Source: Cytophagaceae bacterium (lineage in GTDB: Bacteria; Bacteroidota; Bacteroidia; Cytophagales; Cytophagaceae). From it: a stretch of DNA of 64,000 nt. The DNA lies in contig JALONM010000003.1 of assembly GCA_025454925.1 (NCBI GenBank), forward strand, positions 1 through 64,000, given 5' to 3'. A program made the position numbers and the translations under genes. The first letter of the stretch is position 1, and every line of letters starts with the position of its first letter. The notes below the pieces were generated by a model that saw nothing but the letters and a program-made list of their open reading frames with translations, was not told the origin of the DNA and made no database searches. Shown piece by piece: positions 30,083 through 34,202 of this stretch.

Positions 30083-30352
30083 ATGAGTAAAGTAACTGAT
30101 AGTATCCAAAAAATTGCCCCAAGGGCTTGGGTGGAAATCTGCGATTTTTACCAACAAAAAATATTGTCTAATGGCAATGTATCTACTCCATTAGATCAAC
30201 TTCCTTTTGAATTGGCCATGGGTGTGTATTACCGGTTTTTTATTGAAAATGCGCTGGAATGGGACCTCGGAAATATTCCTTACGAACATCTACAGGATAC
30301 CTTGGTGGACGTATTTGATCATTATGAAAAATCACTTTCTCATTTTAGTTAA
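30083..30352 (+). CDS. Small helical protein, unknown function
   Basis: The ATG at 30083 opens 89 residues without a signal peptide. MSKVTDSIQKIAPRAWVEICDFYQQ is amphipathic. The rest (LPFELAMGVYYRFFIENALEWDLGNIPYEHLQDTLVDVF) is acidic and aromatic, and probably helical. It has no motif that I recognise. It is followed seven bases later by the 40-residue membrane protein gene at 30359, so the two are likely co-transcribed. The 212 bases upstream, to the aminotransferase start, contain a few short palindromes (for example CCTGCAGG) but no clear gene. Confidence 0.6.
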   Translation: MSKVTDSIQKIAPRAWVEICDFYQQKILSNGNVSTPLDQLPFELAMGVYYRFFIENALEWDLGNIPYEHLQDTLVDVFDHYEKSLSHFS

Positions 30353-30358
30353 GCGCAC

Positions 30359-30481
30359 ATGTCAACTTGGAAGAGAATAAAAGAATTTTACCAACGCAAT
30401 GAGAAATACATGATTGCAGAAATCCTCATGTATGCCACCATGATTATTGGTATCATTATTCTATTTTTGATTTTTTCGTAG
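30359..30481 (+). CDS. 40-residue small membrane protein
   Basis: An ATG at 30359 gives MSTWKRIKEFYQRNEKYM followed by a strongly hydrophobic helix (IAEILMYATMIIGIIILFLIFS) and a stop at 30479-30481. The charged N-terminal tail and single helix are what a small inner-membrane protein looks like. It starts seven bases after the previous stop. Its end overlaps the tail of the convergent receptor gene by 26 bases. Without comparative data it is a plausible but unproven gene. Confidence 0.5.
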   Translation: MSTWKRIKEFYQRNEKYMIAEILMYATMIIGIIILFLIFS

Positions 30482-32375
30482 GCTTGTCTTCAATGTGACC
30501 GAGCACCAAATAACTCCATCCATCAGGATCCGCTTTCGGACGCTTTTTCTGCTCCATTGCTTCCAGCACTTTGCGCTTAAAAGCCCAACAGGTCTGACGA
30601 CGCAGCGATAATTTTTCCGAAAGTTCGTCGGCGGTTATTTCAGTTCTATTGCTGATAAGAAATACCATGTAAAACGCTTTTACGATAGGGAATTTCAGGC
30701 GATAAAACAACGTATTGGCCGTCGCCGATTCTATATAGCTGCATTTCGAACATCGGCGGGAATATGGTATTGGACCGTTGGAATAGTTCGTATTCTGGCA
30801 CTTTTCGCAGCGATATCCTTTAGCCCATTTCATGTTCGATAAAAACTCCAAACAGGAATTTTCATCCGAATAAATATTCTGAAACTCTTCAAAGCTCACG
30901 ATCTTTTGCATGACACGGGCTTTGCTCAAGTCTTTTACATTGGATTCCAGTTTAATGTTATCGGCGTGAAGCACTTCGTTCATCCGGCGGATTTCTTCAT
31001 TGGCTGCTTCCAGCTCTAGTGTGCGTTCTTTTACCTTGGCCTCCAGCTCCTGATTCACTTTATCTTTGAGCGCCTCATTTTCCTTTAACTGCACAATAAT
31101 TTCTTGTTGTAAGGATTCGTTTTTAATCAGTTGATTAATTTTCTCCCGCTGTTCCAGTTCTTTATCGCGCTTGAATGTATTCATGCGATCTGCCAAGGCC
31201 AAAGACAAGGTAATCACTTCCAGCACTACGGCAAAGTTGAGGGCATAAACCACTACGATGCTGCTGGTTTGAATAATCCCCAGGTTATTAAGCGAAGTCA
31301 CCAGGAAGCCGATAAATACAAATGAAAAAGCGAGCACATAAAAACGAGCGGGCTTAAAACCAATATACCAGCCATAAATACCCGCCAGGTAGGCAATCAA
31401 TAAGGCCATCACGTCCAATTGAGGGTCCATCAGAGAAGCCCGATCAAAAATCAGTCGCACCAAGAATATCCCCACCCGTATGGCTATTACCGTATATAGT
31501 ATAATCCGGATTCTGGGAGATGTAAGCCGGGGCACCAAAAAGCTTTTGGCATACAACATAGCGGTAATAACTACGCACAACGCTGCGAATGGCCTTGTAT
31601 AATTATTGATGGATGGGATGTTGGGCCATAAATACTGAAATGCCAGACCGCTGTCTACCAATAAATATACGGCCAGGCTGATTACATAAAAAACGTAGAA
31701 AATATAGGTGAAGTCTTTTAGCGTAAAAAACAAAAAGCTATTGAGCAGAATGATAATGATGAGGATGCCGTAAAAAATTCCAAAGAAATAATATTCCCCC
31801 AGCGCATAGTTAACAAACCTTTCAAAGGACCTGGCTACAAATATAAACCGAATAGAATCGTCGGATTTAACTCTCAGGTAACAAACCAAAGTTTGGGATT
31901 TAAAATCAGGAAGTAAAAATTCAAGGTTTTTATGTTGAAAGGTTTTGTTATTGAAGGTAAAGTTGTCTCCTGTTTTTAATTCGGAATACTGGCCTGTGGA
32001 ATCGGGCAAAAAAATACTCAGACTATCAATTTTAAAATCGTATGCTTCGAGCAACCAGCTTTTATGGCGGGGAGATGCATCGTTTAAAGTAATTTTGATC
32101 CAATAGGCAGAGGCGGTATTGTCATTGCCCGCAATACTACTTTTTTTTCCCTGGTGCAATTGAAATTTGGAAGCAAACTCAGGAGCACTAACCTGTTTAA
32201 TGTTCCAGACGGAATTTTTATCTTCCAGGATTTCAAAACTTGAAATAAAATATTCCTCATTCTCACCAAGAGTCTGAACAATACTTTGCTGTGCACTTAA
32301 AAAGTACGTCGACCACATTATAAAGAATAAAGTGAGCCCCCTACGGGAAGAGAGATGCCTCTTGCGTGCAGTCAT
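30456..32375 (-). CDS. 7TMR-DISM receptor fused to a transposase-derived zinc-ribbon/helix-turn-helix
   Basis: The start is the ATG at 32375 (639 residues); a TTG ten codons upstream is possible. Residues 1-30 are a signal peptide (ends YFLSAQQ). About 40-185 match the extracellular 7TMR-DISMED2 beta domain (ASAYWIKITLND, SWLLEAYDFKIDSLSIF). About 195-395 hold seven hydrophobic helices. About 400-488 is a coiled coil (KVKERTLELEAANEEI). About 493-600 resemble the N-terminus of IS1595/ISXO2-type transposases: VSFEEFQNIY, the zinc ribbon CEKC-x15-CSKC (Cys523, 526, 542, 545), SATANTLFYRLKFPIVKAFYMV, and a helix-turn-helix TADELSEKLSLRRQTCWAFKRKV. No DDE catalytic core follows. The receptor presumably senses carbohydrate-like ligands and acts through DNA or protein binding of the C-terminal module. 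Confidence 0.85.
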   Translation of the reverse strand: MTARKRHLSSRRGLTLFFIMWSTYFLSAQQSIVQTLGENEEYFISSFEILEDKNSVWNIKQVSAPEFASKFQLHQGKKSSIAGNDNTASAYWIKITLNDASPRHKSWLLEAYDFKIDSLSIFLPDSTGQYSELKTGDNFTFNNKTFQHKNLEFLLPDFKSQTLVCYLRVKSDDSIRFIFVARSFERFVNYALGEYYFFGIFYGILIIIILLNSFLFFTLKDFTYIFYVFYVISLAVYLLVDSGLAFQYLWPNIPSINNYTRPFAALCVVITAMLYAKSFLVPRLTSPRIRIILYTVIAIRVGIFLVRLIFDRASLMDPQLDVMALLIAYLAGIYGWYIGFKPARFYVLAFSFVFIGFLVTSLNNLGIIQTSSIVVVYALNFAVVLEVITLSLALADRMNTFKRDKELEQREKINQLIKNESLQQEIIVQLKENEALKDKVNQELEAKVKERTLELEAANEEIRRMNEVLHADNIKLESNVKDLSKARVMQKIVSFEEFQNIYSDENSCLEFLSNMKWAKGYRCEKCQNTNYSNGPIPYSRRCSKCSYIESATANTLFYRLKFPIVKAFYMVFLISNRTEITADELSEKLSLRRQTCWAFKRKVLEAMEQKKRPKADPDGWSYLVLGHIEDKPTKKSKIE

Positions 32376-32918
32376 ATATGTCCGCTTTGTTACCAAGCCT
32401 GCCAAATTAACAAAAAAAAACCAAATTCCTTACAAAGGACCTAGCAGGTGCAAAAAACTTCCCGGTTTATACGTACTTGTTACCATCATTCCTCTTACCG
32501 AAAAAAAAACAACATAGCGCATTAAGCCTGTCTACTGCGATGGATTATATACCCGCTGATGATTTTCGTTTCATGAATAAAATTGAACCAATGGTTGCTT
32601 TCATTGTTTCTTACTCAAAGCTATTTCAAACAACTATGGACTAGGTGGTTCAAAGATTGGGATGGAGCGATCGTTTTCTACCGACAACTATCTTTTCTAG
32701 TAGACTATGGTAAACCTGCGACTTTACAAAATAGAGTATTTTAATGATTTACTTAAGACGTAGTTCATCATAAAACTGAAATCAAGCCTGAGAAAAACAC
32801 CAGTATAGGTGAAAAATCATGGAAATTCGTAATTATTAGTCTTGTATATTTTTTTGGATTTAATTTTTATTTATTTTCGGCAGTAAGTACTTCTTCAAAC
32901 TTTTTATAATAAATAATT
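32376..32918. other. 543-base intergenic region, no gene seen
   Basis: This gap separates the divergent receptor gene and gltA. It is AT-rich and includes a 34-codon reading frame at 32540-32644 that I cannot support. I see no clear hairpin or perfect Bacteroidota promoter. Near-matches to a -7 box (TATTTTCG at about 32871) lie 40-50 bases before the gltA start. Confidence 0.5.
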
Positions 32919-34202
32919 ATGTCACAAGATGCAGAAATAATCCTGGAAGGTAAAAGTTACAAATTCCCTATCGTTGTTGGATCAGAGGGAGAAAAGGCGA
33001 TCGATATCGGTAAATTGAGGGATGTAACAGGCTATATTACCTTGGATACCGGCTATAAAAATACAGGAGCCACCAAGAGTGCCATTACCTTTTTGGACGG
33101 AGAGCAAGGCGTCTTGCGTTACCGGGGTTACCCTATTGAGGAACTGGCAGAAAAGGCATCTTTCCTGGAAGTATCCTATCTGCTGATCTATGGTGAATTG
33201 CCGACAGAAGCACAATTAGACGCGTTCAGAAAACGTATTACCCGTCATACCAACCTTCACGAAGACATTAAAAAAATATTTGATGGTTTCCCAAGTACGG
33301 CACACCCGATGGGAGTGCTTTCCTCGGTAGTGAGTGCATTAACTGCTTTCTATCCGGGAGCCATTAATCCCAATTCCAGCGACGACGAAGAAGATCTTAC
33401 CGTAGTGCGTCTGATGGCAAAACTTCCCACCATTGCAGCATGGTCTTATCGCAATAGCAAAGGACAACCTCTCATGTATCCAAAAAATAAATATGGGTAT
33501 GTGGAGAATTTTCTATACATGATGTTCGCTACTCCAAACGAAGATTATGAACTAGATCCAATCGTAGTAAGTGCGTTGAATAAATTACTTATACTTCATG
33601 CTGACCACGAGCAAAACTGCTCTACTTCCACGGTGCGTATTGTAGGTTCTGCCAAAGCCAGTTTATATTCGTCTGTTGCGGCCGGTATCAATGCGCTTTG
33701 GGGTCCGCTGCACGGTGGTGCCAACCAGGAGGTGATTGAAATGTTGGATGAAATTCAGGCTTCCGGCATCAGCACTAAAGAATACATCGAAAAGGTGAAA
33801 AACAAAACCGTACGTCTGATGGGCTTTGGTCACCGTGTTTATAAAAACTTTGACCCAAGAGCGAAGATTATCAAAAAAGCTTGTGATGATATTCTAAATA
33901 ACCTGGGCGTTAAAGATCCCGTGCTTGAAATTGCCAAAGAACTGGAGCAAGCCGCCCTTAGTGATCCTTATTTCGTGGAGCGTAAATTGTATCCAAACGT
34001 TGATTTCTATTCGGGCATTATTTATAGAGCCCTTGGCTTGCAGACCGACCTGTTTACTGTAATGTTTGCGCTTGGTCGCCTGCCAGGCTGGATTGGCCAA
34101 TGGAAGGAACTAAGAGATGCCAACGAACCTATCGGCCGACCTCGTCAGGTGTATACTGGTTACAACAACCGTCCTTACGTTGATATTCAGCAAAGAGGTT
34201 AA
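32919..34202 (+). CDS. gltA: Citrate synthase
   Basis: GltA condenses oxaloacetate with acetyl-CoA at the entry of the citric-acid cycle. The 427 residues include ITFLDGEQGVLRYRGYPIEELAEKASFLEVSYLLIYGELP and both catalytic histidine regions (LHADHEQNCSTSTVR and GPLHGGANQEV). The GFGHRVYKNFDPRA motif and the catalytic Asp in PNVDFYSGI are also present. The long N-terminal domain places it with the type II, hexameric NADH-sensitive group, though regulation is not shown by sequence. It is monocistronic, with a strong terminator at 34226-34261. Confidence 0.96.
   Translation: MSQDAEIILEGKSYKFPIVVGSEGEKAIDIGKLRDVTGYITLDTGYKNTGATKSAITFLDGEQGVLRYRGYPIEELAEKASFLEVSYLLIYGELPTEAQLDAFRKRITRHTNLHEDIKKIFDGFPSTAHPMGVLSSVVSALTAFYPGAINPNSSDDEEDLTVVRLMAKLPTIAAWSYRNSKGQPLMYPKNKYGYVENFLYMMFATPNEDYELDPIVVSALNKLLILHADHEQNCSTSTVRIVGSAKASLYSSVAAGINALWGPLHGGANQEVIEMLDEIQASGISTKEYIEKVKNKTVRLMGFGHRVYKNFDPRAKIIKKACDDILNNLGVKDPVLEIAKELEQAALSDPYFVERKLYPNVDFYSGIIYRALGLQTDLFTVMFALGRLPGWIGQWKELRDANEPIGRPRQVYTGYNNRPYVDIQQRG

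Follow-up and report, generated by a model that had tools for sequence, protein, structure and literature searches.

Membrane receptors with a transposase-derived output module as likely regulators of glycan utilization in Bacteroidota

Receptors of the 7TMR-DISM type usually end in kinase, GGDEF or phosphatase domains. Membrane-bound one-component regulators are well known (survey PMC10269533), and the reported architectures of the ChiS-family DNA-binding domain include 7TMR-DISM (PMC8092284). For the SusR-like regulators of Bacteroides, the predicted operators are direct repeats with a spacing of 67 or 77 bp, and long-spaced direct repeats are predicted for hybrid two-component systems (HTCS) as well (PMC3878776). 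Here we describe a receptor gene (30,456–32,375, reverse strand; open reading frame list and Pfam) of a Cytophagaceae bacterium (GCA_025454925.1), which lies in a window of 64,000 nucleotides comprising positions 1 to 64,000 of contig JALONM010000003.1. Its 639-residue product joins a 7TMR-DISM sensor to an output derived from a transposase, and we think it quite likely that it represents a large family of membrane-bound one-component regulators in Bacteroidota that have transposase-derived output, most of them regulators of glycan utilization.

The domains of the receptor follow one another in a clear order. An extracellular 7TMR-DISMED2 periplasmic sensor domain (residues 46-179; 31,839–32,240, reverse strand, as are all the segments below) has a Pfam E value of 2.9e-25 and is related to the sensor of RetS, its profile matching the RetS structures 3jyb and 2xbz at ~3e-7. 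The 7TMR-DISM_7TM seven-helix membrane domain (residues 194-397; 31,185–31,796) scores 147.5 bits against a Pfam cut-off of 29 (E 6e-43), and model helices indicate a coiled coil reaching from the last membrane helix to the C-terminal module (residues ~398-490; 30,906–31,184). The module contains an IS1595-type zinc ribbon (residues 504-547; 30,735–30,866) with cysteines at positions 523, 526, 542 and 545. This segment matches Zn_ribbon_IS1595 (PF12760) with an E value of 3.4e-5, scoring 27.2 bits when the module is scanned alone and 24.2 bits for the whole protein, relative to the Pfam cut-off of 25.4. The zinc ribbon is followed by a three-helix helix-turn-helix (HTH; residues ~564-609; 30,549–30,686), recognized from the structural model and from a match of residues 561-612 to the NCBIfam IS1595 transposase profile (E 6e-6). 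Because this match covers only positions 3-57 of the 215 in the profile, and the chain stops after the HTH, the DDE catalytic part is absent from the receptor; the short C-terminal tail (30,459–30,548), with an invariant W620, stands where transposases go on into their DDE domain.

Structural modelling agrees with this arrangement. The AlphaFold model of the module (mean predicted local distance difference test score 86.6) shows the zinc-ribbon region with two short strands and places HTH helices at residues 564-576, 582-589 and 593-609. In the full-length model the sensor is rich in beta structure and is followed by bundled membrane helices, long coiled-coil helices (residues 378-452 and 459-490, the middle being of low confidence) and then the module. 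Nearly all structural neighbours of the C-terminal part found with VIA-align are HTH proteins that bind DNA, with weak scores (Z ≤4.2); a Foldseek comparison with the PDB gives no matches at E 0.001, and searching PDB sequences with only the module as query also gives none. Profiles and model thus place a membrane domain and a transposase-type zinc ribbon and HTH in a single chain, as in a transmembrane one-component regulator, and the combination of DISMED2, seven-helix domain, coiled coil, zinc ribbon and HTH that an earlier note had read from sequence motifs is borne out by Pfam, NCBIfam and the model.

The same note had likened the C-terminal region to the N-terminus of IS1595/ISXO2 transposases lacking the DDE domain, and here too the profile matches agree, as does an alignment in which the module is 38-52% identical to the N-termini of receptor-free open reading frames of ~300 aa, several of which carry a DDE_Tnp_IS1595 (ISXO2-like DDE) domain. 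None of the four zinc cysteines varies among 28 receptor and transposase sequences, and the HTH region is conserved alongside them. In a tree of 98 modules built on 116 columns, a number that limits finer resolution, the sensor-borne modules together with one standalone protein form one clade (96/87) nested inside the transposases. Since all of the sensor-borne modules group in this way, the module is best read as having been captured once and then duplicated. It is also found behind an unrelated Reg_prop/Y_Y_Y sensor in at least two proteins, L077 of Flexithrix and L113 of Desertivirga, whose modules sit at different places within the sensor-borne clade. In Desertivirga arenae, L113 and the 7TMR-DISM receptor L091 share the output module and lie ~7 kb apart on one contig, possibly reflecting a recent exchange of output.

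There are also relatives without a receptor. The genome of the window encodes a 148-aa protein (L010) which, with L170-L172 and L174, belongs to a conserved type of standalone zinc-ribbon/HTH protein of ~145 aa with neither a DDE domain nor a receptor, and which lies apart from the receptor modules in the tree. Genome G198 contains 9-10 dispersed proteins of ~310 aa with an IS1595 N-terminus (L155-L160 and L215-L223); in the copies read by eye the first two DDE aspartates are apparently lost and the VDEF and TDGW motifs replaced, and these may be a soluble domesticated family. In genome G018 there are two identical 991-bp insertion sequences (L161 and L162) with TAGGATTACCCATTTA terminal repeats and target duplications of ~8 bp, as judged by eye; they look like close, active relatives of the source of the module.

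The fusion is widespread. Of the 18 proteins with a 7TMR-DISM domain in the genome of the window, nine carry the module, one of them being truncated at the end of a contig, and these paralogues are no more than 51% identical to each other; the remaining 7TMR-DISM proteins with readable C-termini have other outputs, mostly histidine-kinase-like by eye. At least one match is present in each of the 18 genomes sampled from the same family, and of 395 genomes taken from the class, 16 have receptor-length open frames with the module. One peptide pattern, run against named genomes, yielded 367 relatives, and all counts of named loci refer to the best 80 of these; 77 of the 80 are 7TMR-DISM fusions, from Cytophagales, Pedobacter, Mucilaginibacter, Chitinophaga and others. 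The receptor in the window is transcribed divergently from a citrate synthase gene (32,919–34,202, forward strand; product name read from sequence), and the same arrangement is seen at L075 and L076, whose receptors are 61-65% identical to it overall and 75-80% in the module. It therefore does not resemble a recent insertion, and no inverted repeat pair is found in the region upstream of it. The idea that a transposase fragment recently inserted, without function, into one receptor gene, which the earlier note had named as a finding that would count against it together with failure of the C-terminal residues to match IS1595 proteins, has nothing beyond homology in its favour; we give it next to no likelihood, and an insertion artefact is ruled out by the nine paralogues, the phylum-wide relatives, the conserved synteny and the single capture. 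The match itself is significant by Pfam, NCBIfam and alignment with transposases. The fusion is an old, vertically inherited family of many genera and not a mobile element or an insertion specific to one strain.

The genes next to the receptors point to glycan utilization. In 40 of the 80 named loci the receptor gene is directly followed on its own strand by a gene for a SusC-like TonB-dependent receptor, mostly with SusD after it, and GH30, GH5, GH16, GH18 or GH97 glycoside hydrolase (GH) genes are nearby in others. With 16-86 SusD genes per genome of this kind, or ~1% of genes (estimated at one gene per kb), the adjacency of receptor and SusC/SusD is far above chance. Two further families of the order have the same association: SusC comes immediately downstream of the receptor in four of five genomes of family f19 and within two genes after it in family f13, their SusC proteins being only ~31-38% identical to those of the other loci. 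In the genome of the window, paralogue L006 comes after GH16 and GH3 genes and another paralogue is near a TonB-dependent receptor.

The promoters of many relatives contain two direct copies of AAGCGTATCA, usually 86-93 bp apart. Alignment of the gaps between receptor and susC reveals two blocks, GGTATTwAAGCGTATCA occurring twice ~92 bp apart, and the same core is present twice at 86-88 bp in the gap before the GH30 genes of Mucilaginibacter, despite the different genes. The core AAGCGTATC occurs 2.55 times per kb in the gaps between receptor and next gene versus 0.037 times per kb elsewhere in the loci. Same-strand core pairs 65-100 bp apart and no more than 700 bp downstream of the receptor are found in 45 of the 80 loci; the corresponding counts are a mean of 0.01, and never more than one, in Markov resampling, one on the opposite strand, and eight for 281 other genes. 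Because nine of the ten exact matches to the 16-bp pattern in eight whole genomes are at the receptor locus, the AAGCGTATCA-type element appears to be a dedicated site. A related block, CGTGTGnnnnAAGYGTATA, occurs in family f13. In another module group (L086, L088 and L090) a possible variant operator, TAArYGCAA, is paired at 67-77 bp.

SusR-like proteins and HTCSs, too, have predicted operators with long-spaced direct repeats, and the AAGCGTATCA repeats could belong to another regulator to which the receptor gene is a mere neighbour. This seems decidedly unlikely to us, since the target genes differ while the element tracks one module clade, the exact core being beside 17 of its 26 members and only one of 43 other sensor genes (many of the latter with short upstream flanks), and since the gene-order table shows no other regulator gene common to all loci. 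In addition, the Reg_prop-type L113 is accompanied by a relaxed-core pair with a spacing of 78 bp; the module is here on a different sensor, and this single case suggests that the predicted site follows the module rather than the sensor.

The ancestry of the module, and the presence of related active-looking elements in the same family, raise the question of whether the receptors recognize IS1595 terminal repeats and repress or guide transposition. We regard this as highly improbable: the nearest element has TAGGATTACCCATTTA as its terminal repeat, a sequence unlike the operator, and the receptors adjoin glycan genes, not insertion sequences. Another alternative is that the module no longer binds DNA and acts as a protein-protein or zinc-sensing domain that signals to a soluble partner. 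Zinc ribbons are frequently protein-binding domains, the profile match of the HTH is weak, and the same genome also encodes the standalone L010; however, L010 is of separate origin in the tree, the HTH region and the four cysteines are conserved, and a clade-specific operator-like direct repeat adjoins the receptor gene, all of which make this explanation unlikely.

We therefore return to DNA binding from the membrane. In the mechanism we propose, the periplasmic 7TMR-DISMED2 domain would sense what is probably a sugar or oligosaccharide ligand, and the signal would pass through the seven membrane helices and a putatively dimerizing coiled coil to the zinc-ribbon/HTH module. The module of the relatives most likely binds the two direct AAGCGTATCA-type copies, with their usual spacing of 86-93 bp, upstream of the neighbouring glycan genes, and the bound receptor would activate the SusC/SusD or glycoside hydrolase genes from the membrane, as SusR and HTCS do with other DNA-binding domains.

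Several points weigh against this proposal. The element is clear in only one module clade, plus the related f13 block; other clades have weak candidates or none, and nothing convincing comes from footprinting L096/L097, family f19 or the GH18 group. Named loci of one genus are not independent of each other. DNA binding and activation are inferred from the comparative genomics of site and gene association, and a sugar ligand is made probable solely by gene context and the RetS-like sensor. Most of the paralogues in the genome of the window lie among housekeeping genes, no SusD match is detected in that genome, and no glycan gene is found near the window receptor. The 543-bp intergenic region between receptor and citrate synthase (32,376–32,918) would hold both promoters, and no operator is found there; a search of this region and of the surroundings of seven paralogues in the genome yields no direct-repeat pair. 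The claim of the earlier note that the output contacts DNA gains indirect support from the operator-like element, which is linked to one module clade; for the window gene, neither operator nor target is found. The window receptor most likely works in the same way as its relatives, its own promoter and citrate synthase being candidate targets. On the other side of the receptor, the small gene at 30,083–30,352 (forward strand) encodes an 89-aa protein whose relatives (cluster 25, similarity by eye) adjoin the receptor at L075 and L076.

If the proposal is correct, a sensory receptor has obtained its DNA-binding part from a bacterial insertion sequence, and a transposase-derived class is added to the regulators of polysaccharide utilization in Bacteroidota. 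With a 10-bp site predicted and target genes named in the culturable Pedobacter, Mucilaginibacter and Chitinophaga, it is directly testable. It also raises the question of why unrelated membrane regulators of glycan genes have long-spaced direct-repeat operators in common. This receptor-module fusion is not described in the open literature that we searched, subscription literature being outside this coverage.

The receptors share with RetS, LadS, SagS and similar 7TMR-DISM proteins the DISMED2 and seven-helix domains, both above Pfam cut-offs, but differ in an output that is a transposase-derived module of DNA-binding type. The DNA-binding domain of the ChiS family is presumably different from this module. 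The N-terminal zinc ribbon and HTH are those of IS1595/ISXO2 transposases, with up to 52% identity, whereas here the DDE domain is absent, the module is fused to a receptor and the gene is not mobile. Like ToxR and CadC, the receptors have a sensor, a membrane region and a DNA-binding domain on a single chain. The words transposase, zinc and 7TM are absent from the main text of the survey of such regulators (PMC10269533), which therefore does not describe a transposase-derived output. The earlier note had envisaged a new type of one-component signalling; because membrane-bound regulators of this kind (SusR, ToxR/CadC) are already known, what is new is narrower, namely a transposase-derived output on a 7TMR-DISM receptor and its likely role in controlling glycan genes.

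HTCS are likewise membrane-anchored glycan regulators with direct-repeat operators, and L077 and L113 have their Reg_prop/Y_Y_Y sensor type; unlike HTCS, the module receptors have no kinase, receiver or AraC-type HTH, none of which gives a Pfam match in the window receptor (P0001) or other members of set A4. With SusR-like regulators the relatives would share membrane regulation of glycan genes, and predicted operators of the long-spaced direct-repeat type are present in the relatives, with no such pair found at the window gene; the sensor is different and the C-terminal domain unrelated. Searches with hmmsearch and hhalign against three DUF6377 proteins, which we take to be of the SusR type, show no similarity. 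We propose with reasonable confidence that the receptors form a further class of glycan regulators beside SusR, HTCS and the extracytoplasmic function (ECF) sigma/anti-sigma systems, with a domesticated insertion-sequence output that was captured once, spread by duplication, moved to other sensors and binds long-spaced repeats from the membrane. With the same repeat geometry but a DNA-binding domain unrelated in sequence, such a regulator would be SusR-like in its working, yet not a SusR.
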